Virus record (IMG/VR): IMGVR_UViG_3300035670_001027
Coordinates: 1-28,191 of that record
Source of the DNA: a virus
Length of the DNA stretch: 28,191 nucleotides
Reading direction: 5' to 3' (one strand)
The stretch's first letter is position 1. Every line of letters begins with the position of its first letter. The notes below the pieces were generated by a model. The model saw only the letters and a program-made list of their open reading frames with translations, searched no databases and had not been told where the DNA came from. A program made the position numbers and the translations under genes. This document shows, piece by piece, positions 9,264-28,191 of this stretch.

Positions 9264-10066
9264 ACTACTACGAGATCGACGCACTAAGCAACAGTTCGCT
9301 CTCAGTGCTTGCGAAGAGTCCGCAAAGTTTCCATGCTCAGTACGTCGCAAAGACGATGAAGGGTGAGGAAACTGAGGCGATGGCGTTGGGTTCAGCGGTT
9401 CACATGCTTGCATTAGAGCCGCATCGGTTTGAGCAAGAGTACGACGTGCACGAAGGGCCGATTAATCCAAAGACGGGCAAGCCGTACGGACGCGATACCA
9501 AAGCGTTTGAAGAGTGGTTGACAACAATCGACTCTCAGTCAAAGTGGATCATGCGTGACGAGCTTGACGAGGTGAAGAAGATTGCCAGTGCGTTTCAATC
9601 GCATGCTACAATCGCTGACTTAATGAACCACGATTGCGACTTTGAGCGGCCTTACTCGATGACGTGGAGACATGATGACGGATGGACGACCTCGCTCAAG
9701 TGCAAGCCGGATTGCGTCATTGTCGGAGAATCGGTCATCCTCGACCTAAAGACAACGCAAGACGCAAGCCCTAGCAAGTGGCAGTGGTCAGCGTTGGATT
9801 ACGGTTATCATCGGCAAGCCGCGATTTACCTCGATACACTGGAGGCTATGTACAACAAGCCGTTCCGGTTTTTGTTTGGAGTTGTTTCGAAGAATGAGCC
9901 GTACGAAGTCGCGGTTTACAAGTTGAGCGAAGATGACATTGAGCGCGGTCGGGACGAGTACCATGCACTAATCGCAGAGTACCGGCGAAGAGTCGAAGAA
10001 AACGACTGGCTTGCAGATTGGCAGGTCGGCGAGGTTGTATTGTGTTTACCATCTAGGAGGCGATAA
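9260..10066 (+). CDS. RecE-like PD-(D/E)XK exonuclease
   Basis: A 268-residue protein starting at GTG 9260. It has the features of the RecE C-terminal nuclease (DUF3799-type PD-(D/E)XK): LGSAVHMLALEP at residues 43-54 with the motif His48, KPD at 149-151, a DLK catalytic motif at 162-164 (VILDLKTTQDAS), and YGYHRQAAIYLD at 181-192. Such enzymes chew one strand of double-stranded DNA 5' to 3' and leave single strands for annealing. The RecT gene follows with a one-base overlap, the classic exonuclease-annealase pair. The length fits a stand-alone nuclease domain rather than the longer E. coli RecE. Confidence 0.9.
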   Translation: MNYYEIDALSNSSLSVLAKSPQSFHAQYVAKTMKGEETEAMALGSAVHMLALEPHRFEQEYDVHEGPINPKTGKPYGRDTKAFEEWLTTIDSQSKWIMRDELDEVKKIASAFQSHATIADLMNHDCDFERPYSMTWRHDDGWTTSLKCKPDCVIVGESVILDLKTTQDASPSKWQWSALDYGYHRQAAIYLDTLEAMYNKPFRFLFGVVSKNEPYEVAVYKLSEDDIERGRDEYHALIAEYRRRVEENDWLADWQVGEVVLCLPSRRR

Positions 10067-11738: not shown

Positions 11739-11811
11739 GGATCGGTCGTCTAGTGGACTAGGACGCACTGCGGGACGCGGTGAAACGCAGGTTCAAATCC
11801 TGCCCGATCCT
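11739..11811 (+). tRNA. tRNA-like gene with abnormal anticodon loop
   Basis: The cloverleaf is complete: acceptor GGATCGG (11739-11745) with CCGATCC (11804-11810); D stem GTCT/GGAC with A14, GG and A21; T stem GCAGG/CCTGC with loop TTCAAAT. The anticodon stem CACTG (11766-11770) pairs with CGGTG (11778-11782), but the loop is CGGGACG. U33 is replaced by G and the purine at 37 by C, and loop bases C and G can pair, closing the loop to five bases. Read in register the anticodon would be GGA (Ser), yet the short 4-base variable loop is not that of a serine tRNA. The body resembles tRNA-Glu. No CCA is encoded. Decoding function is doubtful. Confidence 0.75.
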
Positions 11812-15877: not shown

Positions 15878-16116
15878 CCAACAACGAACAGGCCGCAGCA
15901 CATCGCATTTTGCAGAAGCACGGCATCGAACACAAGTTGCACGGGTATCGCTTGCCGTTGACTAGCAATGAGTTCGCGGTGGAGATTGCTGGATGGAAGT
16001 TCGAGCAGTTTGCTGACGTTAAGAGTTACTTGGATCACAAATCTGCTAAGTTTGCTGACGCAGCAACCGAGATTGCCGAAGCGGTAAGGAGGGATGCCGA
16101 TGCCGATAAGCCGTGA
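15874..16116 (+). CDS. Hypothetical small protein, TTG start
   Basis: The likely start is TTG 15874, placed 8 bases after GGGAG and overlapping the previous TGA; the frame is open upstream but without a good ribosome site. The 80-residue product (MTNNEQAAAHRILQKHGIEH...) is alpha/beta and contains no cysteine. No family recognised. The next gene starts inside its 3' end. Confidence 0.55.
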   Translation: MTNNEQAAAHRILQKHGIEHKLHGYRLPLTSNEFAVEIAGWKFEQFADVKSYLDHKSAKFADAATEIAEAVRRDADADKP

Positions 16117-16342
16117 GCGACTGGTGGAGATCGAACAGCACGCTAGACGCTTTGGGCCAGCGAATTGCTGGACAGGGACTAGCGGTACACTCTCGGCAAT
16201 GATAATCGAACTGCTGAGGGAGATTGAGACACTACAAGCCGACAAGCAAAGGGGCAGCGGTTGCCTTGAGGTAGTTGGCGTAACGGAGGTTGATAGAGAT
16301 GAATTACGAAGAGTTTATACGGTCGAAGTCGCAATGGAATAA
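16100..16342 (+). CDS. Hypothetical small helical protein
   Basis: AAGGAGG at 16086-16092 gives correct spacing to ATG 16100; ATG 16094 would be too close. The 80-residue product begins MPISRERLVEIEQHARRFGP and is mainly helical, with a GTSG turn in the middle. No family recognised. It overlaps both the upstream gene and the helicase gene (43 bases), in different frames. Confidence 0.55.
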   Translation: MPISRERLVEIEQHARRFGPANCWTGTSGTLSAMIIELLREIETLQADKQRGSGCLEVVGVTEVDRDELRRVYTVEVAME

Positions 16343-17660
16343 CCGTTGCGGCGTTGACCCTGGAGAGTTGCCGGAGTGGTTGTACGACTTTCAAGCCTAT
16401 CTCGTTGAATGGGCGTTGCGTCAAGGTCGAGCAGCTATTTTTGCGGATTGCGGCATGGGTAAAACTGCGATGCAATTGGCATGGGCACAGCGGATCGTTG
16501 AGGTAACAAGCAAACCTGTTTTGATCGTTACGCCTATTGCGGTTGGCGCCCAGACAATCCAAGAGGCTGAACGATTCGGGATTACTGCGAAGCGATCCCG
16601 CGACGGTTCTTGCACTGGTGAGCGATGCGTATGGGTGACAAACTACGAGCAACTTCACAAGCTTGAACCGTCGATGTTTGCTGGCGTTGTGTGCGATGAA
16701 TCGTCAGCTATCAAAGACTTCAAGAGCGAACGAAAAGCGGTCGTCGTGGAGTTTATGCGGACGGTTCAGTATCGCTTGCTATGCACCGCAACAGCGGCCC
16801 CTAATGACTTTTGGGAGTTGGGCACGTCTAGTGAAGCATTGGGGCTACTTGGTTTCCGTGACATGATTACCAAGTTTTTCAAGCAGGAAACCAGCAAGGA
16901 CCATCACGGATGGGGCCGAACGAAATACCGTTTTCGTGGACATGCCGAGCAACCTTTTTGGTCGTGGGTTTGTTCATGGGCTAGGTCGATTCAGAATCCA
17001 AAGGATATCGGTTTCGATGGCTCTCGTTTTGTGCTGCCGCAACTCATCGAGGTCGAGCATGTTGTAAGCTCGGCAAGGTTGCGAGATGGTTTCCTGTTTT
17101 CGCTTCCTGCCCGCGACATGCAAGAGGAACGCGAAGAGCGGCGGCGTACAATGCCTGAGCGTTGCGAGATGGCAGCAAACCTAGTCCATCAACACGAAGG
17201 GGCTTCGGTTCTTTGGTGCGAACTTAACGACGAAGGAGACATGCTGGAGAAATTAGTTGCGGATTCGGTTCAGGTTAAAGGATCGACCAGCGATGACGAA
17301 AAGGAGGAGGCGTTAATTGGTTTTTCAAAGGGCGAAATTAAGCGGCTAATCATCAAGCCGAAGATTGGAGCGTGGGGACTGAATTGGCAACACTGCCATA
17401 ACGTAACCATGTTTCCTTCGCACTCGTTCGAGCAATACTATCAAGCGGTTAGGAGGTGCTACCGATTCGGACAAACGAAAGACGTTACCGTAAACATCAT
17501 CGCAAGCGAAGGCGAGCGGGGTGTTATTAAGAACTTGCATCGAAAGCAAGAGCAATCAAAAAAGATGTTTCGTGAGCTTTGCAAGCACATGAACAACGCT
17601 ATGCACATCGTTACTCAAGATTATTTCCCAGAGAGAGAAAAATTACCAACATGGCTATAA
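16299..17660 (+). CDS. SNF2-like helicase/translocase
   Basis: ATG 16299 follows GGAGG (16285-16289). The 453-residue protein has two RecA-like lobes: Walker A DCGMGKT at residues 50-56, motif Ia VLIVTPIAV at 74-82, motif II DESS at 133-136, motif III TATAAPNDFWEL at 163-174, motif V KIGAWGLNWQ at 355-364, and motif VI QAVRRCYRFGQ at 382-392. The arginine-rich QxxxRxxRxGQ is typical of SNF2 proteins. It would move along double-stranded DNA using ATP; phage SNF2 proteins may help replication or transcription. It overlaps the methyltransferase gene by 10 bases, suggesting a functional pair. The length is that of a compact core without extra domains. Confidence 0.92.
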   Translation: MNYEEFIRSKSQWNNRCGVDPGELPEWLYDFQAYLVEWALRQGRAAIFADCGMGKTAMQLAWAQRIVEVTSKPVLIVTPIAVGAQTIQEAERFGITAKRSRDGSCTGERCVWVTNYEQLHKLEPSMFAGVVCDESSAIKDFKSERKAVVVEFMRTVQYRLLCTATAAPNDFWELGTSSEALGLLGFRDMITKFFKQETSKDHHGWGRTKYRFRGHAEQPFWSWVCSWARSIQNPKDIGFDGSRFVLPQLIEVEHVVSSARLRDGFLFSLPARDMQEEREERRRTMPERCEMAANLVHQHEGASVLWCELNDEGDMLEKLVADSVQVKGSTSDDEKEEALIGFSKGEIKRLIIKPKIGAWGLNWQHCHNVTMFPSHSFEQYYQAVRRCYRFGQTKDVTVNIIASEGERGVIKNLHRKQEQSKKMFRELCKHMNNAMHIVTQDYFPEREKLPTWL

Positions 17661-18628
17661 CAGAACAAGTAATTACCGATCAGTACGCAATCTACAACGG
17701 AGACTCTGCGGAGTGGATCACATCGCTACCAAATGAGTCGCTAGGCATGAGTATCTATTCTCCGCCGTTTGCGACTGAGAACGGAGGCTGTCTTTACAAC
17801 TACTCAAGCAGCGTACGCGACTTGTCGAACGCTCGAACGTACGCGGAGTTTTTTGAGCATTACGCCTTCATCGTTGAGAACATCGCACGAGCCACAAAGC
17901 CCGGTCGAATCTCGGCGGTTCACTGCATGGACGTACCAAAGCAAGGGGCGAACATATGCGGATATACCGACTTCCCTGGCGATATCATTCGGTTGCATGA
18001 AAAGCTTGGGTTTGAGTACCTGCCGCGAATTTGCATATGGAAGGAGCCTTTAGCGGTGAGGAATCGCACGATGGCGAAAGCCTTGGCGCATCGTCAGATA
18101 TGCGAGGACTCGACGTTGACCAATGTTGCAGCGGCTGACTATCTGATTCCGTTTCGCAAGCGTGGAGAGAATCCGATTCCGGTAACGCATGAAACCGGGT
18201 TGCATGAGTACTACGGCGAACGCGAAGTCCCTGCCGATATTCATCGCTATCGCGGATGGACAGGAAAACAGACCGAGAATCGCTACTCTCATTGGATTTG
18301 GCGAAACTACGCATCGTGCTTTTGGGATGATATCCGGCTGGATCGGGTGTTACCCTACGAGGAAAGCAAGGACGAAGGCGACGAAAGGCACCAGCATCCG
18401 CTACAACTTGACGTAATCCAAAGAGCGGTCGAAATGTGGAGCAATCCAGGCGAAGCAGTCTTAACCCCCTTCATGGGCGTCGGGTCAGAAGTCTACGGAG
18501 CGGTGAGCCTGGGCCGTCGCGCTATCGGGTGCGAACTCAAGCCGAGCTACTATCGACAAGCGGTAAAGAATCTCGCATCGCTTGGTAAGCAGCAAGTGAC
18601 GCAACAACAACCTACCCTCTTCGACTAA
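17651..18628 (+). CDS. DNA methyltransferase (beta class, SPPF)
   Basis: ATG 17651 lies within the last codons of the helicase gene. The 325-residue protein has the catalytic motif IV SPPF at residues 37-40 and the AdoMet-binding motif I near the C-terminus (TPFMGVGSE at 272-280, with GRRAIGCEL at 288-296). This order, catalytic motif first, marks the beta class. SPP is typical of N4-cytosine enzymes, although N6-adenine cannot be excluded. No restriction endonuclease gene is adjacent, so it is probably an orphan enzyme protecting phage DNA. The last residues, QPTLFD, resemble a beta-clamp-binding peptide. Confidence 0.92.
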   Translation: MAITEQVITDQYAIYNGDSAEWITSLPNESLGMSIYSPPFATENGGCLYNYSSSVRDLSNARTYAEFFEHYAFIVENIARATKPGRISAVHCMDVPKQGANICGYTDFPGDIIRLHEKLGFEYLPRICIWKEPLAVRNRTMAKALAHRQICEDSTLTNVAAADYLIPFRKRGENPIPVTHETGLHEYYGEREVPADIHRYRGWTGKQTENRYSHWIWRNYASCFWDDIRLDRVLPYEESKDEGDERHQHPLQLDVIQRAVEMWSNPGEAVLTPFMGVGSEVYGAVSLGRRAIGCELKPSYYRQAVKNLASLGKQQVTQQQPTLFD

Positions 18629-18736
18629 AGGTTGGCTCGCCTGGGCAAAGGTGCCTGCTTTCATGGGGCAGGAATCCCGCCAAATGGGCTGGTGCGCGGT
18701 AAGTGCCGGTGTCTCACTTAACTACCGCTTCAACCT
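18629..18736 (+). ncRNA. Candidate structured RNA closed by AGGTTG/CAACCT
   Basis: AGGTTG (18629-18634) pairs with CAACCT (18731-18736) and closes about 100 bases. Inside are CCTGC/GCAGG (18654-18658 with 18668-18672) and a ten-pair stem GCGGTAAGTG (18696-18705) with CACTT and ACCGC (18715-18719, 18724-18728) around a 4-base bulge. No ORF fits. It may be a small RNA or a riboswitch-like element ended by the terminator at 18739. No known family is recognised. Confidence 0.5.
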
Positions 18737-18738
18737 CC

Positions 18739-18772
18739 GCGCTCCGACTCGAAAGAGGCGGAGCGTTCTTTA
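18739..18772 (+). terminator. Intrinsic terminator
   Basis: CGCTCCG (18740-18746) pairs with CGGAGCG (18759-18765), with an inner CTC-GAAA-GAG hairpin, followed by TTCTTTAAT. Strong GC-rich stem and T-rich tail. It ends the recombination/modification operon and lies upstream of the homing endonuclease. Confidence 0.75.
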
Positions 18773-18797
18773 ATCCTTTAACGTGACGAGTGAGTAA

Positions 18798-19274
18798 ATG
18801 GAAAAACCAATCTACAACGGGCGATACATCGCCTACAGTAACGGTGACATAGCAAACGCGGTGACGGGGCGAATCCTATCCGGCGGCAAGAACTCTAAAG
18901 GCTACTTGACGGTGAGCCTTTACGATGGATCAAGCCCAAAGCGGCCTAGATCGTTCCTCGTTCATCGCCTGATTGCACAAGCGTTTCTAGGTGACGACGA
19001 CGGCAAGCAGATCAATCACAAGAACGGCAACAAACTCGACAACCGAGTCGAGAATCTTGAGTGGGTGACAAATCAAGAAAACGTCGATCACGCTCGGTTT
19101 GTTCTCGGCAAGGATGGATTCGGCATCAAGTCTCCTCGATGCAAGATTGCACCGGAGATTGTCGAGCGTATCAAACAACGCGACAGGACAGCCCCTTTAT
19201 GGGCGGCTGAGTTGGGTTGCAGTGTGGATTACATCTATCAAATCAGATCAGGCCGGTATCGGTCGAGAGGGTAA
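18798..19274 (+). CDS. NUMOD4/HNH homing endonuclease
   Basis: A 158-residue protein. The N-terminal half has a NUMOD4-type pattern (YIAYSNGDIANAVTGRILSG...KGYLTVSL). It is followed by an HNH core: VHRLIAQAFLG, INHKNGNKLDNRVENLEW and VTNQENVDHA, with the histidines and asparagines of the HNH_3 family. The C-terminal part (CKIAPEIVERIKQRDRTAPLWAAELGCSVDYIYQI) is a helix-turn-helix DNA-binding domain. Such enzymes cut DNA and spread themselves. It has its own leader after the terminator, with GTGACGAGTGAG before ATG. No interrupted gene or intron is evident, so it is probably free-standing. Confidence 0.9.
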   Translation: MEKPIYNGRYIAYSNGDIANAVTGRILSGGKNSKGYLTVSLYDGSSPKRPRSFLVHRLIAQAFLGDDDGKQINHKNGNKLDNRVENLEWVTNQENVDHARFVLGKDGFGIKSPRCKIAPEIVERIKQRDRTAPLWAAELGCSVDYIYQIRSGRYRSRG

Positions 19275-19314
19275 CTTTCGTTGACTAGGCATATGCCTAC
19301 GGATTAACGAAAAG
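19275..19314 (+). repeat. Nested inverted repeat with perfect 12-bp palindrome
   Basis: CTTTCGTT (19275-19282) and AACGAAAAG (19306-19314, one extra A) flank the perfect palindrome AGGCATATGCCT (19287-19298). It may be an operator, terminator-like hairpin or replication-related cruciform. It starts immediately after the endonuclease stop. Confidence 0.7.
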
Positions 19315-19333
19315 TACAATTTAGCGAAATGGT

Positions 19334-19434
19334 GTGGCAGCCACTACAATACAACTACCCCCGGTCGGTGCATCTAGCGACTCTTCGCAAGGCTGCCACC
19401 TTAGCACTGGCCGGGGGATTTAGTACAGGGTACT
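19334..19434 (+). promoter_or_regulatory. Pseudoknot leader with SD hairpin before initiator gene
   Basis: Two long complementary pairs are interleaved: GTGGCAGCC (19334-19342) with GGCTGCCAC (19391-19399), and CCCCCGG (19358-19364) with CCGGGGG (19411-19417). The order A-B-A'-B' is that of an H-type pseudoknot with 9 and 7 base pairs. Next, AGTAC (19422-19426) and GTACT (19430-19434) form a hairpin whose AGGG, the likely Shine-Dalgarno, is in the loop, 7 bases before ATG 19438. This should control translation of the initiator. Confidence 0.65.
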
Positions 19435-19437
19435 GCT

Positions 19438-20319
19438 ATGGCAGGCGATTGGATCAAGATGCGAACGGATCTTTACCGAGATCCAAAAGTCTGCCTGATG
19501 GCGGACATGCTCAGCGACGAAAAGGGCGAATTGTCGCGTTACGTGTCACAGCAAACGCAACGTAACATGACCGTAACGCGTAACGTAACGCGTAACGCTT
19601 GCGTTGGTGCGTTGTTATCGGTGTGGGGCGTCATGCGTCATCGCGGAGTGCGAGTTGACGACGATTTGAAGTGCTTCGGTGTGGGGCTTTGGGTACTCGA
19701 TGACATTGCCGACATGCCCGGCTTTGGGTCAGCGATGGCGGCGGCTAGGTGGGTTGTTGAAACCGACGAAGGATTGATTTTCCCAAGGTTTTTTGATGAA
19801 TACAACGTAGAGCCAGACGGAAAACAGAAGTCTAAAAACGCAGAGCGACAAGCCCGATACAGAGAGAAAAAGCGGCTCGAATCAGAGCCTGAAAGTAACG
19901 TAACAAGTAACGTAACGCGTAACGTTACAGTAACGCCTAGAATAGAGAAGAGTAGAGTAGAGAAGAGTATTAATAACCCCCTACCCCCTAAGGGGACAAG
20001 TAAAGCCGCTTCGCTAGGCGAATGGGACATACCAGACGGTTTCGACACTCCAGAGGTGAGACAGGCCCTAGCAGACTTCGAGGCAATGCGAGCAAGCATC
20101 GGAAAGAAGATCAAAAGCCGGGCGAACGTCTCCAAGTCCCTGAGAGGCTACGACAGCCCGTCTCACTTGGTGTATGCGATTGAGTTTGCAATTGGCAATG
20201 AGTACCAAGGTATCAAGCCGGAGTACAGGCCAAGTAACGTAGGGCAAAGTGGCTACAACTCACCCAAGCCCAAGAAATCAACCTTACCCGTAATCGACGA
20301 AAACTGGGAGCCTGCTTAA
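19438..20319 (+). CDS. Replication initiator-like protein
   Basis: A 293-residue protein that starts MAGDWIKMRTDLYRDPKVCL, a beginning I recognise from phage replication proteins of the DnaD/replisome-organiser type. A winged-helix-like N-terminal domain (to about 125) is followed by a basic helix KNAERQARYREKKR (134-147) and a low-complexity linker encoding NVT repeats and RIEKSRVEKS, then a C-terminal domain. The linker and a segment near residue 43 are encoded by GTAACG repeats, so the gene probably carries the origin, like lambda gene O. The next gene is DnaB helicase, overlapped by one base. Its role would be to melt the origin and load the helicase. Function is inferred from layout and repeats. 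Confidence 0.75.
   Translation: MAGDWIKMRTDLYRDPKVCLMADMLSDEKGELSRYVSQQTQRNMTVTRNVTRNACVGALLSVWGVMRHRGVRVDDDLKCFGVGLWVLDDIADMPGFGSAMAAARWVVETDEGLIFPRFFDEYNVEPDGKQKSKNAERQARYREKKRLESEPESNVTSNVTRNVTVTPRIEKSRVEKSINNPLPPKGTSKAASLGEWDIPDGFDTPEVRQALADFEAMRASIGKKIKSRANVSKSLRGYDSPSHLVYAIEFAIGNEYQGIKPEYRPSNVGQSGYNSPKPKKSTLPVIDENWEPA
19537..19977 (+). other. Putative replication origin: GTAACG iterons inside initiator gene
   Basis: Cluster 1: CGTTAC (reverse, 19537-19542), then GTAACA/G at 19562, 19573, 19580, 19585 and 19592. Cluster 2: GTAACG/A at 19895, 19900, 19907, 19912, 19919 and 19930, plus reverse CGTTAC at 19923-19928. Immediately after comes a purine/AT-rich run with repeated AGAGTAGAG-type units and TATTAATAA (19938-19977), which could be the unwinding element. 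The arrangement mirrors lambda ori in gene O. Confidence 0.65.
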
Positions 20320-21635
20320 TGCCACTTCACCCAAGCCACTTTGAGACATGCAAAGCAATCGAGGAGCAACTGATTGCGGGTATCATCCTTCGGCCGGGAG
20401 ACTTCTACGCGGTCGCTGATGCACTCGATAGTTCCGACTTCATCCATCAGCCGATGGCGGACGCATGGGCAGCATTCCAAGCGATGTCGAAAGACGGCGT
20501 TGAGTTTCACCGCGAATCGGTGATGCTGTCCGAACTTCGCAAGCGTGGAGTTTTTGACAAGATCGGCGGCGATGTTGGATTCGCCGACTTGGTTACAAAG
20601 ACCGTACCGGGCCACATCGTCTACCACTCGGAGCAGGTCGCGGAATGGGCGGAGCGTCGGCGGGTACTGTTGGCTTTAGAGTGGGCGGTTACGGAGGCGT
20701 CATCGCTGGCGTTCGATCCTGACAGCGTGGTCAGTAATGCTCAACAGCGATTGCTCAAGGCTAAAAGCATTGGCGGCGAAGATGTTCAGCACCTTGGCGA
20801 CTTGATGGGCGATTACCTGGAGACTCTCGAAGATGCGAGAGCCAACAAGCGGACGGCGGCGGTAGTGCGGACTGGGTTCAGGGAAATTGACATGGCTCTA
20901 AGTGGCGGGATACCTTTAGGATCCTACGCAATCCTTGCCGCTAGACCGTCGATAGGCAAGTCGGCTCTTGCGATGGATATCGCACAAAACGCAGCGGCAA
21001 ACAACGATCACACGTTGTTCGTATCGCTTGAAATGAGCAATCAGCAAATCGGCCAGCGGCAATTTGCGAAGAATGCCGACATGCGGATCAGTGAAATGCA
21101 AAACGCCTCGTACACCGATGCCGATTGCTTGCGAATGCTCAAGGCTTGCAGCGAAGCGAAGCAACTACCGCTTTACGTGTGGCAAGCGGCAGGTATATCG
21201 ATGGCTCGCATCGAATCGCGGCTAAGGGCCGAAGTTGCCAAGCGTGGCGTGAGACTCGTTATCGTGGACTACCTTGGGCTCATTCGCGGTAGCAGTCCAC
21301 ATCAAAAGATTTACGAGCGGGTGACGCAGATTAGCGGCGAACTTGCGAGAGTCAGCAAGCAGCTCAACATTGCATTGTTGGTGCTATGCCAACTCGGCCG
21401 GGCGGCGGAGGGTGAAGAGCCTAGTATCAACATGCTGCGGGATTCCGGAGCCATTGAGCAGGACGCGGATATTGTGATGCTCTTGCACCGCGAAAGCCGA
21501 GACGCTCATGATGCCGCGGTATTGCTTGAGAAGCAGCGTAACGGCAAGGTAGGGCGGTTTAACCTTAAGTTCGACGGCAAGCGGTTTAGCGATGCGTTTC
21601 GAGACGCGGAAACATTTCACGGAGACTTTAAATGA
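20319..21635 (+). CDS. dnaB: Replicative DNA helicase, DnaB family
   Basis: A 438-residue protein. The N-terminal helical domain (LIAGIILRPGDFYAVADALDS, about 18-40) matches the DnaB N-domain. The RecA-like ATPase has Walker A AARPSIGKSALAMD at 207-220, a conserved FVSLEMS at about 234-240, Walker B LVIVDYLGLI, and the end signature LRDSGAIEQDADIVMLLHR followed by EKQRNGKVG and FDG. It unwinds DNA ahead of the replication fork as a hexamer. The start ATG overlaps the initiator stop by one base. The length is slightly shorter than E. coli DnaB (471). Together with the initiator and the beta clamp it forms the replication module. Confidence 0.95.
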   Translation: MPLHPSHFETCKAIEEQLIAGIILRPGDFYAVADALDSSDFIHQPMADAWAAFQAMSKDGVEFHRESVMLSELRKRGVFDKIGGDVGFADLVTKTVPGHIVYHSEQVAEWAERRRVLLALEWAVTEASSLAFDPDSVVSNAQQRLLKAKSIGGEDVQHLGDLMGDYLETLEDARANKRTAAVVRTGFREIDMALSGGIPLGSYAILAARPSIGKSALAMDIAQNAAANNDHTLFVSLEMSNQQIGQRQFAKNADMRISEMQNASYTDADCLRMLKACSEAKQLPLYVWQAAGISMARIESRLRAEVAKRGVRLVIVDYLGLIRGSSPHQKIYERVTQISGELARVSKQLNIALLVLCQLGRAAEGEEPSINMLRDSGAIEQDADIVMLLHRESRDAHDAAVLLEKQRNGKVGRFNLKFDGKRFSDAFRDAETFHGDFK

Positions 21636-21853
21636 GCAAGCCAACTTGGATAGCAAGCAAATTGCTGGAAGAGATCGAGCATCTACAAGCGTTGCTTGCA
21701 GAGCAAACAAGCGAAATCAAATCGCTTCAATCGCAACTTGCGAAGACGGCAAAAGACCGAACGCGGTTTAGGGATCGAAGCGAAGAGTTACGAGCGGAAC
21801 TGGCGAAGTACGTCAGGGCAGATAATCTAGTTTTGAGAGGGAAGAAGAAATGA
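21632..21853 (+). CDS. Small coiled-coil protein
   Basis: A 73-residue protein almost entirely coiled coil (LLEEIEHLQALLAEQTSEIK...LQSQLAK), rich in Leu, Glu and Lys, with a basic C-terminus RGKKK. It overlaps the helicase gene by 4 bases and the next by 4 bases. It might be a helicase-associated factor or an oligomerisation module; nothing specific can be read. Confidence 0.65.
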   Translation: MSKPTWIASKLLEEIEHLQALLAEQTSEIKSLQSQLAKTAKDRTRFRDRSEELRAELAKYVRADNLVLRGKKK

Positions 21854-22281
21854 GCGAACGTGAATTCAAGGTTGGGGATCGGGTGCGGGTTGTCACCGCT
21901 GAAAGCCCGCTGATTGGTAAACTCGGCACGGTCATCGAATGCAACGAACGAGATGTTTACGTGCTTGCGTCGATTGACGGGGTTTGCGCGTCGCACATCT
22001 GGTTTGCTAGGTGTAATCTGGAGCTAGTCGAACCTGCCCCAACTGTCAAGGAATGCTTGACAACTGACAATGTCAACCATCCACCGCACTACAACCAAGG
22101 TGGGATCGAGTGTATCGAGGCGATCAAGGCGGCGTTAGGCGATGGCTTCGTAGCGTACCTTCGCGGTAACGTGATGAAGTACCTTTGGCGATGCGAGCTT
22201 AAAGGCGGCCTCGAAGACCTGAAAAAAGCGGCGTGGTATTTAGATCGAGCGATTAAGGAGATGGAGGTGACCAGTGAGTAA
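21850..22281 (+). CDS. DUF3310 protein with N-terminal KOW-like part
   Basis: A 143-residue protein. The N-terminal 60 residues (FKVGDRVRVVTAESPLIGKL) look like a KOW/SH3-type barrel. The C-terminal half is the DUF3310 domain: VNHPPHYNQGGIECIEAIKA at 75-94, GNVMKYLWR at 106-114 and KGGLEDLKKAAWYLDRAI at 118-135. DUF3310 is widespread in phages and has been annotated as nucleotide-kinase-like; its biochemical role is unproven. It overlaps neighbours by 4 and 8 bases. Confidence 0.88.
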   Translation: MSEREFKVGDRVRVVTAESPLIGKLGTVIECNERDVYVLASIDGVCASHIWFARCNLELVEPAPTVKECLTTDNVNHPPHYNQGGIECIEAIKAALGDGFVAYLRGNVMKYLWRCELKGGLEDLKKAAWYLDRAIKEMEVTSE

Positions 22282-22786
22282 AAACATAGTTCTCGGCATT
22301 GACCCAGGGCCGAAAGAACATGCTTTTGTGTGGTGGGATTGCGACGAACAGCGGGTTATCCAACTTGACACGTTTTCGAGTTTCATTCGTTTTACCGAGT
22401 GGGAAAAACGCGAGATGCTCGCAAAGGTCAAGACCGTTGCCTGCGAGTGGATCGAGTCGTACGGCATGGCTGTCGGCCAGGAAGTCTTTCGCACTGTTGC
22501 CGGTATTGGATGGCTAGCCGGGACGATTGGCACTGAGGTTAGGTTGGTGCCACGCAAGGCGGTCAAAATGCACTTGTGCAACTCGATGAGGGCGAAGGAT
22601 GCGAACATTCGCCAAGCGTTGATTGACCGCTTCGGAGTCGTGGGCACCAAGAAAGCACCGGGGCCGCTATTTGGAGTCAGTAGCCACTACTGGGCGGCTC
22701 TTGCTGTTGCGGTTTACGCGGCGGAGACTCCGGCGAAAGACGGGGAGTTTTGGATTGAGGATCTGCGGAAGAGGTCTATCGTCTAG
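22274..22786 (+). CDS. RuvC-like Holliday junction resolvase/nuclease
   Basis: GTG 22274 starts a 170-residue protein with a RuvC-like RNase H fold. Motifs: VLGIDPGP (catalytic Asp10), CEWIESYGM (Glu58 or Glu61), VRLVPRKAVKMHL and KDANIRQALIDRFG (Asp109) and SHYWAALAVAVY (His138). In RuvC the last motif usually carries an additional Asp; here Ala fills that place, so the metal site may differ. Likely substrate: branched recombination or replication intermediates, resolved before packaging. It ends the replication operon; a promoter follows 8 bases later. Confidence 0.8.
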   Translation: MSKNIVLGIDPGPKEHAFVWWDCDEQRVIQLDTFSSFIRFTEWEKREMLAKVKTVACEWIESYGMAVGQEVFRTVAGIGWLAGTIGTEVRLVPRKAVKMHLCNSMRAKDANIRQALIDRFGVVGTKKAPGPLFGVSSHYWAALAVAVYAAETPAKDGEFWIEDLRKRSIV

Positions 22787-22793
22787 GCAAAGT

Positions 22794-22821
22794 TTGCAAA
22801 CCTCCTAGCACTTGCTACAAT
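22794..22821 (+). promoter_or_regulatory. Promoter P3 for lysis/tail-appendage module
   Basis: TTGCAA (22794-22799), 16-base spacer, TACAAT (22816-22821). The -35 is identical to those of P1 and P2. GGGAGGG lies between it and ATG 22845, so a short leader is expected. It sits in the only gap between the replication and lysis modules. Confidence 0.65.
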
Positions 22822-22844
22822 GCGAGTAACCAAGGGAGGGTAAT

Positions 22845-23027
22845 ATGCAAGACCTATTGAAGTCGAAACGTTTTTGGGCAGCCGCTGCGGTGGTTGCCGT
22901 GGTCGTGTTAAAGGGCAAGGTGCCTTTGACCGAAGAGCAGATACAGCAGCTCGTGTTTGCCGTTGGAGCGTGGATTGTAGGCGATTCGATTCGGCCTTTG
23001 CCTAAACCTGACGAGGTGGCAAAGTGA
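22845..23027 (+). CDS. Holin-like small membrane protein
   Basis: A 60-residue protein behind GGGAGGG. It has two hydrophobic segments: FWAAAAVVAVVVL (10-22) and IQQLVFAVGAWIVGDSI (33-49), joined by a loop KGKVPLTEEQ, and a charged tail KPDEVAK. This is the size and shape of small phage holins (two-segment class), and the EEQIQQ-V-GAWIVGDSI pattern resembles one family of such proteins. It lies first in the operon with a peptidase. The holin call is by topology and context. Confidence 0.65.
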   Translation: MQDLLKSKRFWAAAAVVAVVVLKGKVPLTEEQIQQLVFAVGAWIVGDSIRPLPKPDEVAK

Positions 23028-23326
23028 GTCTTTTTAAGCGATGCGAAACGGCATGGCGTCCCGATGACGCGATCAAGATCTACAACGAGACTGGCGGAGA
23101 TCGTCAAGCGTTCCGCCGAGCCTATCGACAGCATGCCAAGACCGTCTATGGACTTGACCCCGTAACGGTCATCATGCTCGTTCAGATGGCGATCCGTCTC
23201 TACTTCTGGGCCAGAGAAAACGGCTTTCTGTCGGCGATTCCTCAAGCCCAATATTCCAACGCTCCATCAGCGGCCCAGTTGTACGCAGAGGCGGAAATCG
23301 AGGCGGAAGCGAGTGACGATGAGTAA
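23024..23326 (+). CDS. Hypothetical protein with membrane helix
   Basis: GTG 23024 overlaps the preceding stop by 4 bases. The 100-residue product has a basic N-terminal helix (DRQAFRRAYRQHAKTVYG), a hydrophobic segment VTVIMLVQMAIRLYFWA (47-63) and an acidic C-terminal tail EAEIEAEASDDE. Probably membrane-bound and part of the lysis or assembly set. No family recognised. Confidence 0.6.
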   Translation: MSLFKRCETAWRPDDAIKIYNETGGDRQAFRRAYRQHAKTVYGLDPVTVIMLVQMAIRLYFWARENGFLSAIPQAQYSNAPSAAQLYAEAEIEAEASDDE

Positions 23327-23687
23327 GCCCGAATCGAGTTGGCTACCCTGGATCATCGCAGCGGGTGCGATTTACTTTGCGTTTCAGCGACCGGCTAACG
23401 TCGATCCAAAGCCCGCCGACATTAAAGGCGTTGTAGCGTCAACATTGCCGAACATCCGAGCGGCATACCGAGCGGCGTTTCTCGAAGCGGCCAGCAAAAT
23501 CGAGAGGCGTGAAATCGTCAACCAAGAGCAGTGGACGCAGTTTATAGCGTCGAATGCGGGAGCGAAGCAACGCGAAGCACTTGACCGGGTATACAACGCA
23601 ATCGATGAACTAAAGCTACCGGCGAGTTTTGAGGGTAAAGAGTCCGAGATTGCGAAGTTGAATCGAGATATAGCGGGGGCGTGGTGA
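23319..23687 (+). CDS. Membrane-anchored hypothetical protein
   Basis: ATG 23319 is preferred over GTG 23313. The 122-residue product begins MSKPESSWLPWIIAAGAIYFAF, an N-terminal anchor, followed by a soluble helical domain (LPNIRAAYRAAFLEAASKIE). This topology, short cytoplasmic end and periplasmic helical part, is that of inner-membrane spanin-type proteins, but no outer-membrane partner lipoprotein is evident beside it. It overlaps both neighbours. Confidence 0.55.
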   Translation: MSKPESSWLPWIIAAGAIYFAFQRPANVDPKPADIKGVVASTLPNIRAAYRAAFLEAASKIERREIVNQEQWTQFIASNAGAKQREALDRVYNAIDELKLPASFEGKESEIAKLNRDIAGAW

Positions 23688-24502
23688 TGGAATTTTTTAC
23701 CGGCTACGACCCAACGATTGAGCGACGCGACGAACTGCAAAACAATTCGGTATCGATGCCGTTTGCGCTAAAAGACTTTTCGGCCCCTGAGGAAATCGAC
23801 CCGCGAAGGCTTTTAAGGCACGATAAGCAAGGCAATATGGGAAGTTGCCAAGGTTTTTCGCTGACCAATTGCGGCGAATATCTGTTAGCCTTAGGGCACG
23901 GAGCGGTAAGCGAATCGCGGCAGTTCTCGCAGTTATTCGCCTACCTTGAATCTCAGCGTATCGACGGGTTACTCGGACGCGATCAAGGATCGACGATCAG
24001 CGGCGGCTTGCGAGTCGTAAAGGAGATCGGCTATTTACTCGAATCAGCCTTGCCTTATCGAACGCCGTATCCATCGAACGCACGGAGTTTAGTCACCGAT
24101 CAGATGCGGCTTGAGGCGGCACCCTATCGCATCCGTTCGCACACATGGCTAGAGAGTTACGACGACATCTACAAGTACCTTGCGAGTGGGTCAGGTGCGG
24201 TGCATACCGGGACTACGTGGAACGACTCGTTTTATAGTCAGAACGGCGTCTTGGAATCGGTCAGCCTACGCGGTGGCGGCGGTCACGCTACGGCATGGCT
24301 AGGCTACTCCAAACGCAAAGACAGTCGCGGACGCAATTATATATGGCGTCTGAACAGCCATAACGATTCATGGACTGAAATTGCCCCCTCGGTTATCGAT
24401 GCGTTGTGTCGGCATCAATACACGTCGATTGTCGGGATCAGCGACTTGAGCCTACCGGGGCCGCGTAGCGTATCGTGGTTACAGTCGAGGCCGTTAGGAT
24501 GA
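23687..24502 (+). CDS. Papain-like (C1) cysteine peptidase
   Basis: ATG 23687 is chosen for GGGGG at 23675-23679. The 271-residue protein has the C1 triad: QGNMGSCQGF at 48-57 with oxyanion Gln48 and active Cys54, GGGGHATAWLGY at 196-207 with His200, and RLNSHNDSW at 221-229 with Asn223. In true papain the sequences are QGxCGSCWAF, HA and KNSW; the match is clear. No signal peptide or inhibitory propeptide is obvious beyond about 45 leading residues. In this position, beside a holin-like gene, it may be a lysis enzyme, a virion maturation protease or a tail-associated peptidase. The substrate is unknown. Confidence 0.85.
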   Translation: MEFFTGYDPTIERRDELQNNSVSMPFALKDFSAPEEIDPRRLLRHDKQGNMGSCQGFSLTNCGEYLLALGHGAVSESRQFSQLFAYLESQRIDGLLGRDQGSTISGGLRVVKEIGYLLESALPYRTPYPSNARSLVTDQMRLEAAPYRIRSHTWLESYDDIYKYLASGSGAVHTGTTWNDSFYSQNGVLESVSLRGGGGHATAWLGYSKRKDSRGRNYIWRLNSHNDSWTEIAPSVIDALCRHQYTSIVGISDLSLPGPRSVSWLQSRPLG

Positions 24503-24522
24503 ACAAACAAGGAGGTTTGATT

Positions 24523-24933
24523 ATGGTATTGCTGTTTTTCGCGTTGTTGTTTTGGTCACAATCACCGCTGGTAAGCGATCCGACGCAATGCGATATTGCA
24601 CCGACATCGAGTGAGTTGATAAGCGAACTGGAGCAAGCCGCAAAGACTTTGATTAAGCCTGAAATTGCGGTTGATCCTACGCCAAGCCCAAGCGATAAAC
24701 CCAAGGTTGCAAAGCGAGAGATTGTTATATTCTCGGCGGACTGGTGCGAGCCTTGCAAGCAATGGAAGCGATGCGAGCAAGGCAAGTTTGATGAGGCCGG
24801 TTATACTTTTGCCTATGGCAATCCAAATGACGTTAAAAGGCTACCTCACTTTATTGTCACGGATGGCGATAAGACCGTCGAGATCGAAGGCTACATGACC
24901 CTTGAACGACTTGCAGCGGAGTTGGCGAAATGA
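24523..24933 (+). CDS. Membrane-anchored thioredoxin-like protein
   Basis: ATG 24523 has GGAGG at 24511-24515; an upstream ATG at 24499 lacks a good site. The 136-residue protein begins MVLLFFALLFWSQS, a signal anchor, followed by a Pro/Ser/Lys linker to about residue 64. The thioredoxin fold starts with EIVIFSADWCEPCKQW (66-81), where the redox pair is Cys75-Cys78, and has RLPHFIV with the cis-proline near 112. The domain would face the periplasm and reduce, oxidise or isomerise disulfides. In the lysis/tail region it may serve disulfide-rich virion proteins. A third Cys (residue 84) lies next to the active site. Confidence 0.82.
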   Translation: MVLLFFALLFWSQSPLVSDPTQCDIAPTSSELISELEQAAKTLIKPEIAVDPTPSPSDKPKVAKREIVIFSADWCEPCKQWKRCEQGKFDEAGYTFAYGNPNDVKRLPHFIVTDGDKTVEIEGYMTLERLAAELAK

Positions 24934-25136
24934 CTCAGGATTCCATCGTTTACGTAATCGGCACTGGCATCGTTACAGCATTATCAACGGTAGTTGGAGT
25001 GCTATGGAATCGCCAAGTTAAGAACGAAGAGACTACGCGAAAAGACCTCGAAGAATGCCGAAGCGACCGCGAACGTCTTTGGGCTAAGATTGAAACGCTA
25101 CAGACTGAAATTGGCAAGTTTTTGAGGGGTGCATAA
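24930..25136 (+). CDS. Small membrane protein with coiled coil
   Basis: A 68-residue protein overlapping the previous stop by 4 bases. One hydrophobic segment, IVYVIGTGIVTALSTVVGVLW (5-25), is followed by a charged coiled coil (EETTRKDLEECRSDRERLWA) to the end. This topology occurs in phage holin accessory or spanin-like proteins. No exact family recognised. Confidence 0.6.
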   Translation: MTQDSIVYVIGTGIVTALSTVVGVLWNRQVKNEETTRKDLEECRSDRERLWAKIETLQTEIGKFLRGA

Positions 25137-25633
25137 TGCGAGTGTCAGACCTGATTGAGCAGATTGACGATTGGCAGACAAAGACAATCGATGAAGTGTG
25201 GGCGGAATTGAACGCCAATACAAAGCAGTTTGTAAGCGATCAGTGGTGGAGTTTGCTTGGCATCGCTCAGGTAATCGGGGAGGCAAATGTATCGCCATTC
25301 ATCGCCTATCTAAAGTCGATCAATCTTGAATGGGTTGCAACGCAAGCAGCCGGACGCGGGATTCCGATTGGTGATCCAGCGATCAATACGATTTTGCGAA
25401 ACCTTGGAAGCACCGACGCATGGCTAATTGCAGAGGCCGGTCGGCGAATGGTAAGCCCGTTGGAGTTTTATGACCTCGCTCCAGATAAAGACCTCGTTGC
25501 AACCGTCTTAAGCGGTATGCAATTAGGAGCGATCAAGCGTGAGAAAAAGGTAATTGCGTCAAGCCGATATAATGCGTATTGTGCCGCGATGGAGGCGTGG
25601 AACGGTGACCCAAGCACGGAGCCTACACTGTGA
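25136..25633 (+). CDS. Hypothetical helical protein
   Basis: A 165-residue protein, starting on the last base of the preceding stop. It is helix-rich (MRVSDLIEQIDDWQTKTIDE, LLGIAQVIGEANVSPFIAYL), with one cysteine and no membrane segment. Placed between membrane proteins and tail appendage genes, it may be a virion or chaperone protein. No family recognised. Confidence 0.65.
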   Translation: MRVSDLIEQIDDWQTKTIDEVWAELNANTKQFVSDQWWSLLGIAQVIGEANVSPFIAYLKSINLEWVATQAAGRGIPIGDPAINTILRNLGSTDAWLIAEAGRRMVSPLEFYDLAPDKDLVATVLSGMQLGAIKREKKVIASSRYNAYCAAMEAWNGDPSTEPTL

Positions 25634-26286
25634 CAATCGCTTTGCAGGGTCAAGCGTCAGCACTGGCAACATCTATCACTCTGCCAAGTCACAGCGCGGG
25701 TGACTTGATTGTCATTCACGCCTCAAATCACGCATCGACGACAGTGCCAGACAAGCCGAGCAGCAGTTGGGTCAGTTCATACACAAGCTCTGCGGCCAGT
25801 TCGGTTTTGATTGCTTATTTGCACGCTCAAAACTCGTCGATGACGAGCGGCACTTGGACAAACGCGACGCATCTCTTTGCTACTGTGTGGCGAGGCGGGG
25901 CGAATACGATTGTAGTGCCGGAGTATGTGTCGGCTAACGCAGGCGTGACCATAAATGTTAACTATCCGGCTCAGCCTTTAGGCAGTTTTAAGACTGACGC
26001 ATTAGACCTCGCGCTCTTAGCGTATGCGCTTAACAGTGACTCAACAAACACGCTACTCGCTCCAGGTGCCACAACTGACCTGCAAGCCGATACGGACGGA
26101 TCATCTTGGCAAGCGAAGCAGTATTACCAGTTAGGCCGCACTACGAGCTGGGCAGGCACGACGGTACAGCAGGCCACATCAGCATTTTACCGCACGCTGA
26201 TGCTTACATTGGTGGAGTCCAGCATTTACGGCATAAGCAGCGGCGGCATATTTTTTAGACCCGGTATGAGTGGAGGAGTGGACTAG
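25630..26286 (+). CDS. Tail or virion-surface protein
   Basis: GTG 25630 overlaps the preceding stop by 4 bases. The 218-residue product is Ser/Thr/Ala-rich and has the jelly-roll-like pattern of a phage surface protein (ALQGQASALATSITLPSHSA, VIHASNHASTTVPD, WRGGANTIVVPEYVSANA). Such proteins occur as tail-associated or decoration proteins with beta-sandwich domains. It has no cysteines. The next gene is a long appendage protein, supporting a tail role. The exact family is unclear. Confidence 0.65.
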   Translation: MTIALQGQASALATSITLPSHSAGDLIVIHASNHASTTVPDKPSSSWVSSYTSSAASSVLIAYLHAQNSSMTSGTWTNATHLFATVWRGGANTIVVPEYVSANAGVTINVNYPAQPLGSFKTDALDLALLAYALNSDSTNTLLAPGATTDLQADTDGSSWQAKQYYQLGRTTSWAGTTVQQATSAFYRTLMLTLVESSIYGISSGGIFFRPGMSGGVD

Positions 26287-27776
26287 TGAGCAAGCAAAAG
26301 ATTTACGCCGGGATTACAAACCTGAATCTTACGGTAATCGTGTATGACAACACGTCTACGACCGGAGCGGGGTTAAGCGGGTTGACACATACAAGCAGCG
26401 GTCTGATTTTGGAGTGGAGGCGTGCCGGTGATTCTTCGTGGACGCAACTTGGTGTTGGGACTGGGCTTGTTGCTGGCACCTTGGGCTCTTACACATCAGG
26501 CGGCATTGTTGCGAGCGGTGGAAGGGCTGGCAGGTATCAAATCGGCATTCCTAACGCGGCTGTTGTGTCAGGGGACAGGATGGTCGAGATATGCTTGCGA
26601 GGTGCGGCTAATATGCATCCTGTTGACATTGAACTTGAGTTGGATGCGGTTAATTACCAAGACGCAACGGCGTTCGGTTTGTCGAAGTTTGCTGACATCG
26701 AGACGGACACGCAAAACATCCAGAGCAGATTGCCCGCAGCGCTGAACGATGGCCGGATGGACTCCTCGATTGGTGCATATCAAAGCGGGTTGGTGCCTAC
26801 CAACTTTGCAACGTTGAGCATCGACGGAAGCGGTCGAGTGTTGCTACAGCCTACGCAAACGGGCGTAACGATACCACTTGTGGAAACGGTCGGTACTGTC
26901 AACGAGTTAGGCGGCAGTGCTTTTGATGCAAATTCGCTAGATACAGAAATAGCCATTAAGGTTTGGGAGCAACTCACTACCGCCACCTGGCCTACTGACT
27001 CATTTGGCAAGCAGGTGCTTATAGGATCGTCAACGCAACGATCAGTTGCGGTCACTGGTAGCAATCATGTTGCAGCGGATATCCATGAGTTTCAGCCGGG
27101 CGTAATTACGGCGGCAGATTTTTCGGCAGGTGCGATTGACGCTAATGCACTAGCAGCGGATGCCGCAACAGAGATAGCAACTGCGGTCGGTACGTTGCAG
27201 GTGTTGACGCGGTTGGACAGCATGATTGAGAGCGATGGAGCGGGGCAATTTAGGTTTGACGTGATTGCTCTTGAGAATGCTCCAAGCGGTGGCGGTGGAG
27301 GTGGTGGTACTGACTGGACATCGAATGAGCGGTCGGCTATCCGGTCGATCCTTGGGTTTGATTCGAGCGGCTCGGTGGTTGATCCATCGGTTGGGATCTT
27401 GGATGAGATACGCGACGGGTTGGGGAATACTACCGTCAATGTCTATCCCGTGTCGGCATCAACTCCCGAGCGCGTGGCAGGCACGACCTTAACCTTCTAC
27501 CGCGACGAATCCAGAGCGGTGAGTGTGGTTACTGATTTTACGCTAACCTCGTTGACGCTTCGATTCGTGGTTGAGGATAACGATGGCGATGACGTGCTAG
27601 TCATCGAAGACGCGTCGATCACTAAGAGCAGTCAGACCTTTACCGTTAGCATCACAACAGCGGTAACGGCAAACCTTGGCAACTACCGTTGGAGTATGCG
27701 AGACATTACCAGCGGTAACAGCGTTATAGCCTTTGGCGTGCTTACCGTGCAGGAGGCAGCGTCAAAGGATGCCTAG
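26286..27776 (+). CDS. Tail appendage / baseplate upper-like protein
   Basis: GTG 26286 overlaps the preceding stop by one base. The 496-residue protein has three parts. An N-terminal beta domain (LTVIVYDNTSTTGAGLSGLT) resembles the BppU-type domain of baseplate proteins. A long central part carries Ala-rich helical repeats (ITAADFSAGAIDANALAADA). After a linker of eight glycines at about residue 338, a C-terminal beta domain (TLTFYRDESRAVSVVTDFTL to TVQEAASKDA) again has an immunoglobulin-like pattern. Modular proteins of this sort form tail fibres or receptor-binding baseplates. An AGGAGG for the next gene lies near its end. Confidence 0.7.
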   Translation: MSKQKIYAGITNLNLTVIVYDNTSTTGAGLSGLTHTSSGLILEWRRAGDSSWTQLGVGTGLVAGTLGSYTSGGIVASGGRAGRYQIGIPNAAVVSGDRMVEICLRGAANMHPVDIELELDAVNYQDATAFGLSKFADIETDTQNIQSRLPAALNDGRMDSSIGAYQSGLVPTNFATLSIDGSGRVLLQPTQTGVTIPLVETVGTVNELGGSAFDANSLDTEIAIKVWEQLTTATWPTDSFGKQVLIGSSTQRSVAVTGSNHVAADIHEFQPGVITAADFSAGAIDANALAADAATEIATAVGTLQVLTRLDSMIESDGAGQFRFDVIALENAPSGGGGGGGTDWTSNERSAIRSILGFDSSGSVVDPSVGILDEIRDGLGNTTVNVYPVSASTPERVAGTTLTFYRDESRAVSVVTDFTLTSLTLRFVVEDNDGDDVLVIEDASITKSSQTFTVSITTAVTANLGNYRWSMRDITSGNSVIAFGVLTVQEAASKDA

Positions 27777-28179
27777 ACTATGCCGATGCGGAAAGATTGT
27801 TGAAGATCGTTGCGAGTGCTTTAGTGGAGCATCAACGCAGCTTTCACGCTCCACAACGGCGGAAGGGCATGGCAGCGATCACCGTAAAGCGAGTGAACGG
27901 TATAGAGCAGAGCATCCGTTATGCGAGAGATGTGTACAGTTGCACGGTGCCATGCATGCTAAGCCGTCGAAGGACATGCACCACATAGTAAGCATACGCA
28001 AGGACGCGACGCAAAGGATGCAGCGTGGCAATTGGCTGGCGGTTTGTGCCGAGCATCACGAAGAGTTAGAGGGCAATGAGTTGGAAGGCATGGCGTGTAA
28101 GCGGTGGAGCGAGGCGAACTACGATGCGGCGATGGACACCCCCTCTAAGGTATGGGGGGCGTCTCAAAATGCGACTTAA
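27769..28179 (+). CDS. HNH endonuclease
   Basis: ATG 27769 lies inside the preceding gene; AGGAGG at 27751-27756 is its probable ribosome site. The 136-residue protein starts MPRLCRCGKIVEDRCECF, a zinc-ribbon-like segment, and then has HPLCERC and the HNH core MHHIVSIRKDATQRMQRGNW followed by LAVCAEHHEE. The two histidines (HH), Asn and the final His match the HNH motif. This family is commonly found just before the small terminase subunit and works with terminase in packaging. The end of the window lies 12 bases after its stop, so terminase genes may follow. Confidence 0.88.
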   Translation: MPRLCRCGKIVEDRCECFSGASTQLSRSTTAEGHGSDHRKASERYRAEHPLCERCVQLHGAMHAKPSKDMHHIVSIRKDATQRMQRGNWLAVCAEHHEELEGNELEGMACKRWSEANYDAAMDTPSKVWGASQNAT

Positions 28180-28191
28180 TACGGCTTCGAT

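Follow-up and report, generated by a model that had tools for sequence, protein, structure and literature searches.

A covarying pseudoknot leader, probably at the 5' end of phage replication transcripts, precedes differing first genes

What kind of RNA stands ahead of the replication genes of this virus, and what does it control? The window analyzed here, the whole stretch of 28,191 bases from an IMG/VR virus record, has 163 non-coding bases between an HNH_3 gene and a replication initiator, and these contain a 14-bp palindrome, a -10-like TACAAT, a knot and a Shine-Dalgarno (SD) region. The original prediction read two interleaved repeats in this gap as an H-type pseudoknot and a third repeat as an SD-in-loop hairpin, together gating translation of the initiator. 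The features of the locus and of the window are:

11739–11811: tRNA gene, the sole Rfam gathering match in the window
18798–19274: HNH_3 gene, upstream neighbor of the leader region
19286–19299, no strand assigned: 14-bp palindrome TAGGCATATGCCTA, a putative operator
19315–19320, plus strand: -10-like hexamer TACAAT (match to TATAAT); predicted transcript start about 19326–19327
19334–19342, plus strand: P1 5' arm GTGGCAGCC (sequence, descriptor, arm-swap test)
19343–19357, plus strand: L1, an A/C-rich single strand (A/C-rich across 11/11 types; 14–17 nt in representatives)
19358–19371, plus strand: P2 5' arm CCCCCGGTCGGTGC (descriptor, arm-swap test, alignment)
19372–19376, plus strand: junction ATCTA, containing UCU (UCU in 11/11 types)
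19377–19388, plus strand: P3 hairpin GCGA-CTCT-TCGC, 4 bp (descriptor, arm-swap test, alignment)
19391–19399, plus strand: P1 3' arm GGCTGCCAC (descriptor, arm-swap test)
19404–19417, plus strand: P2 3' arm GCACTGGCCGGGGG (descriptor, arm-swap test, alignment)
19422–19434, plus strand: SD-in-loop hairpin AGTAC-AGG-GTACT (sequence; kept by only part of the relatives)
19438–20319, plus strand: replication initiation protein, 293 aa, first gene past the leader here (phrog_2509, E = 1.2e-27)
20319–21635, plus strand: DnaB-like replicative helicase, the second gene (PF03796, E = 7e-59)

The initiator had no Pfam match, and its closest genome match (60%) was in a Planctomycetaceae MAG. Within its gene lie two clusters of GTAACG repeats (19537–19597 and 19895–19935), encoding NVTRNVT repeats; GTAACG occurs 31 times in the window against 12.2 expected, with 11 of these between 19537 and 19935. 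These clusters look like an origin with iterons within the initiator gene. In lambda, the origin iterons are located inside the initiator gene O.

Analysis of the gap confirmed the interleaved stems as an RNA pseudoknot, spanning 19334–19417. P1 forms the 9 bp originally claimed, whilst for the second stem the pairing stood and the length did not, as P2 extends to 14 bp (including 2 G.U) rather than 7. A third helix, the P3 hairpin, which separates the 5' arm of P2 from the 3' arm of P1, was absent from the earlier description. The unknotted fold of 141 nt beat its shuffles (z = -2.70), and in 40/40 contexts the knotted state was predicted to exceed the best unknotted state in stability, using a rough knot penalty of +9 kcal/mol. 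In the descriptor's segmentation L3 is 0–5 nt long, and 0–1 nt in types B, C and D (types are described below); by A-form geometry this would be too short to cross a P1 of 9–14 bp in a classical H-type knot. As hardly any gap separates the 3' strands of P3, P1 and P2, the three helices probably stack as one rod, most simply in the order P3-P1-P2, of approximately 30 bp and with the A/C-rich L1 running alongside. Conservation outside the stems was modest, consisting of UCU at the P2/L2 junction and the A/C-rich character of L1.

A descriptor for the knot arrangement, run on both strands of the window, located a single site (score 61.6), whilst in 60 windows simulated with a first-order Markov model (1.69 Mb, one strand) it had 4 matches with a best score of 52.2. 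Relatives were gathered by initiator, helicase and motif searches and then scanned with the descriptor and a covariance model. The model was built from a 7-sequence alignment of types A, E, G, H, I and J; a MAFFT alignment of 12 leaders had the stems misregistered. In total, 28 distinct cores falling into eleven types (A–K) were obtained from IMG/VR phage contigs, 26 by the descriptor plus those of L399 and L280. Types outside the training set were recovered by the model, B, C, D and F with E-values of 1.9e-9 to 6.3e-8 and K with 1.5e-5. A second run on 80 sources found type K at three loci (L280, L282 and L284), type G in L286, a truncated copy in L293 and, in L086, the C copy already known; all other rows were background or antisense. 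The element occurs once per record in the window and the four other matching virus records, where second matches were antisense to the same site.

Copies were found in IMG/VR contigs only. At 65 loci of cellular genomes with initiator relatives no leader was detected, a looser descriptor giving 9 weak matches, all scoring at most 50.0. The covariance model gave one match in 294 genomes of the phylum of L103, at L409, which resembles a plain hairpin, fails the descriptor and was rejected. A distant blastn search of a named-phage collection with three leaders (those of the window, L289 and L280) found no leader, with matches short, partial or absent. L085 and L087 carry GAAAAGTACAATTTAGCGAA with no knot at that place, and the majority of the 75 stretches that match ATGNNTAWAATGATKGCGT are unrelated. 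Searched against Rfam at E ≤ 10, the window leader gave weak sRNA/miRNA matches only, far under threshold; at E ≤ 1, L289 and L280 gave nothing and L002 three weak matches far under threshold; at the gathering threshold, 14 leader-bearing loci gave tRNAs alone. No description of the element was found among the matches listed in searches of the open-access PMC literature. Judged against Rfam 15 and these papers, the leader is apparently undescribed.

The relatives showed extensive compensatory changes, both in an alignment-free arm-swap test and in an alignment (A4), and the check that the original prediction had set on this point beforehand thus came out in its favor. In the swap test, P1 arms paired with their own partners over 9–14 bp, against a median of 5 bp for 110 cross-type combinations (7/110 reaching at least 9); for P2 the values were 13–15 bp against a median of 6 (11/110 reaching at least 9). 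Stem letters shared between types, e.g. A, G and H, probably explain some of the swaps that reach 9. The P2 of type K has two adjacent mismatches, leaving 8 bp uninterrupted. Across P2 and P3, alignment A4 (28 rows, 27 distinct), which had been fitted to the structure being scored, had 93.4% paired cells, with both sides changed in 18/19 pairs and covariation of 0.686 vs at most 0.155 when slid. P1 lay outside the covariance model, and on the model's alignment, where its registers are mixed, it was 66.8% paired vs 63.5% for one slid version; support for P1 rests on the swap test. G.U accounted for 16/277 stem pairs, which would be A.C mismatches on the opposite strand, and with both strands scanned every descriptor site with a score above 55 was on the coding strand of the operon. 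The G.U-mediated changes and the strand of these sites therefore point to the sense RNA as what is conserved. At the level of sequence comparison, the knot is confirmed as real: the stem letters differ widely between types and pairing with the own partner is retained. The comparison thus shows P1, P2 and P3 retained on the sense strand as their letters change, with P1 and P2 interleaved.

A -10-like hexamer (4–6/6 match to TATAAT) lies 8–13 nt upstream of P1 in 42/42 contexts. No clear -35 element was seen, and a promoter scan of 16000–28191 did not have the TACAAT promoter at 19315–19320 among the sites listed. With this spacing P1 would begin at about +2 to +7, so that the transcript 5' end is predicted to be tucked into the knot; going by a start predicted from hexamer spacing, the knot is probably the 5' end of the transcript. 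A second promoter-like site, with TGCTACAAT, is located at 22793–22821 just 5' of a small ORF at 22845, and no knot lies downstream of it.

Upstream of the promoter, two or more operator-like motifs alternate: TAGGCATATGCCTA, the palindrome of the window; GGCATTCCC...GGAATG, of which GGCATTCCC stands at the palindrome's place in other relatives; and ATTCCNAAGGA (window, L007, L021, L294). The choice of motif is independent of leader type. In the types of the TACAAT class (A, B2, C and D; one or two representatives per type), the 40 nt upstream were 95–97% identical and the 84-nt core 32–45% (ungapped). Conversely, B2 and B shared 89% of the core and 65% of the upstream sequence. Whole leader cassettes have thus probably been exchanged between nearly identical promoter flanks. 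Such exchange may reflect drift with recombination, or selection for difference.

The genes that follow the leader also differ. Those seen first across the leaders encode a replication initiator, a DUF1376 protein, or an HNH-like or unknown protein. An ORF beginning MKTHG..., one beginning METLNDI... and others follow the leader in L086 and L097, where the initiator is approximately 2.6 kb downstream, and in L038 an HNH-like gene comes first. From the leader to +3.4 kb in L086 and L097, the genes MKTHGVGKSN... and METLNDI... and a possible HNH gene were seen to precede the initiator. Because the leader precedes differing genes, with the initiator 2.6 kb off in two loci, it appears to belong to the promoter and not to the initiator. 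To say that it controls the initiator was therefore too narrow, as L086, L097 and L038 put other genes first.

Leader type and first gene were also uncoupled at the level of protein domains. Counting initiator N-domains or first genes per leader type, type A had two N-domains, B three first genes, C, D and I two each, E three, and G two or three. The N-domain MAGDWIKM occurred with types A, B, D and E, and MARIRT with D, G and J; type K had MGRIRT, a close variant of MARIRT. As one leader type precedes unrelated N-terminal domains and one N-domain follows several types, control by the initiator's own product, as originally suggested, is unlikely. A caveat is that a conserved C-terminal part is common to many initiators. 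Identity to the window in this part was 96% over 116 residues in L089 and 42% over 104 in L289, and in L263 was confined to the last 18 residues; ahead of it, the initiators of the window and these three loci had no similarity. The C-terminal part ends in STLPVIDENWEPA in the window and L263, and probably faces the helicase. It was observed that N-terminal domains have been swapped for unrelated ones, the C-terminal part being kept to varying extent. Promoter class and operator class likewise vary independently of leader type. With such independence from gene, promoter class and operator class, the leader would not simply be a switch for the first gene.

The hairpin AGTAC-AGG-GTACT was located as predicted, with AGGG 7 nt ahead of the ATG at 19438. 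Using a rule that required SD letters in the loop and a stem of 5 bp or more, with G.U allowed, such hairpins occurred at 18/27 leader-gene junctions, which are not independent, compared to 174/951 other genes (18%) and 31% of shuffles. Their letters differ among types A, B, D, G, H and K, in which they may be a real second control; 9/27 junctions failed the rule, with the hairpin absent or weak at several. It lies outside the conserved element and travels partly with the gene module. The claim that RNA folding gates translation is thus partly supported: the hairpin enrichment speaks for it, and an inconsistent predicted SD exposure and the junctions at which the hairpin is missing speak against it.

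The explanation we tentatively favor is that the knot is a cis-acting 5'-terminal structure for the whole early replication mRNA, most likely shielding its 5' end. The early replication operon transcript would start with the knot, its 5' end tucked in, and this would protect the polycistronic mRNA against decay that depends on the 5' end, raising or prolonging expression of the operon whichever gene is first. Transcription from the hexamer, P3-P1-P2 stacking and 5'-end protection are each putative here. Secondary structure at the 5' end stabilizes bacterial mRNA, since both RppH and RNase E require a single-stranded 5' end (as described in PMC3997798). Shielding fits the leader because of its 5' position and its indifference to sequence and to gene. 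Against it, a plain hairpin would suffice, and UCU, L1 and the knot itself suggest more specific recognition; a purely structural role does not predict that alleles are exchanged whole where the flanks are nearly identical; and the P1 register was mixed on the model's alignment. The distance from P2 to the start codon, 19–27 nt in 41/42 contexts, would suit a translational role as well, in which initiation at the first gene is tuned by the SD hairpin and by a knot bordering the ribosome site on its upstream side. The SD-in-loop hairpins, enriched and differently spelled in six types, speak for this reading, which we nevertheless consider unlikely: the hairpin is weak or missing at several junctions, predicted SD exposure showed no consistent shift between knotted and unknotted states (in a rough energy model), L280 has 49 nt from P2 to the AUG, and the family of the first gene varies.

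A role of this promoter-proximal RNA in transcription itself, with the RNA either modifying RNA polymerase (put-like) or being bound by an antiterminator of the phage (nut-like) and so allowing terminator read-through, is possible, although on the unlikely side. Put RNA acts by suppressing termination via the zinc-binding domain of beta'. Such a role fits the placement, at a predicted early-type operon start whatever genes follow, as well as the shield does, and a nut-like site with a cognate protein would suit exchangeable alleles. HK022 putL, as described in PMC9378689, lies just downstream of PL, is approximately 70 nt long, pairs from A3 and contains a triplex; as such it resembles the leader in being a promoter-proximal early-operon RNA of similar size, helical at its 5' end and gene-independent, whilst the promoter adjacency of the leader is that of the hexamer, with promoter and timing both predicted. 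Unlike the interleaved P1 and P2 with P3, put consists of two tandem hairpins; furthermore, a strict scan of the window found no strong co-oriented intrinsic terminator, and a separate tool-based scan counted 17 terminator-like sites vs 12.8 (sd 3.8) in shuffles. It is quite doubtful that P2 and a U run act as a conditional terminator, perhaps releasing a short, trans-acting, allele-specific leader RNA. There are 5–6 T after P2 in types G, H, I, J and K and in L017, and the leaders come as discrete alleles that appear to have been exchanged. In phage P4, CI RNA made from a leader represses the replication genes (PMC4825925); P4 is comparable in having a structured replication-operon leader for which discrete specificities are conceivable. 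However, P2 (as segmented) is followed by at most 4 T in types A, C, D, E and F and in most of B, and as P1 and P2 share no bases there is no alternative, mutually exclusive antiterminator stem, so the leader was not assigned to the intrinsic-terminator attenuators. Unlike in P4, no complementary target region was found in the window, nor an unusual sense match to the leader elsewhere in it, and no tyrosine integrase was found in 10/10 records, of which many are fragments. At 9308–9320, 13 nt match the leader's complement, which is borderline at 5% of controls. A DNA element (an origin or operator cruciform) or chance inverted repeats in place of RNA is very improbable: the leader is flanked by a palindrome and an initiator gene holding GTAACG repeats, but the high-scoring sites keep to the coding strand and the stems contain G.U pairs, and covariation speaks against chance repeats.

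Comparison with other knotted RNAs gave further partial likenesses. The strand order P1-P2-P3-P1'-P2' of HDV-like ribozymes, in which P1 has about 7 bp and P2' is preceded by a catalytic junction, is the same as that of the leader; we rejected membership, since P1 here is 9–14 bp, 0–5 nt between P1' and P2' excludes P4 or a catalytic junction, and there is no Rfam match. The preQ1-III riboswitch is a pseudoknot of the HLout type whose P1 stacks between P2 and P3 and whose expression platform is distal (as described in the review PMC11625349). The leader agrees with it in strand order and short linkers, its own stacking being deduced from connectivity, and differs in having few invariant unpaired letters and in preceding phage replication rather than queuosine genes; as the Rfam family model was unmatched by the leaders searched, membership was again rejected. 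The T4 gene 32 leader likewise has a pseudoknot 5' of a phage replication gene (PMC3014915); that knot is bound by the gene's own ssDNA-binding protein beside an unstructured A+U-rich ribosome-binding site. Unlike at gene 32, the first gene here varies and is not an SSB.

A further reading, distinctly improbable, is that the leaders form an undescribed RNA family in which a 5'-terminal, triple-stacked knot of the HLout type serves as the replication region's exchangeable specificity cassette, its alleles changing places as whole units amid nearly identical promoter flanks and being read by an allele-matched protein or RNA factor. If true, this would mean early replication control at the RNA level, together with exclusion or immunity among co-infecting relatives.

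Few structured RNAs are known to head phage early operons, most of them in lambdoid and T4-like phages. The leader described here is small and backed by covariation across eleven types, and its hypervariable alleles, set amid conserved flanks, lead one to ask what selection favors such divergence. It could show whether a pseudoknot can cap a viral operon independently of the genes in it, or uncover a new RNA signal that polymerase or ribosome reads.
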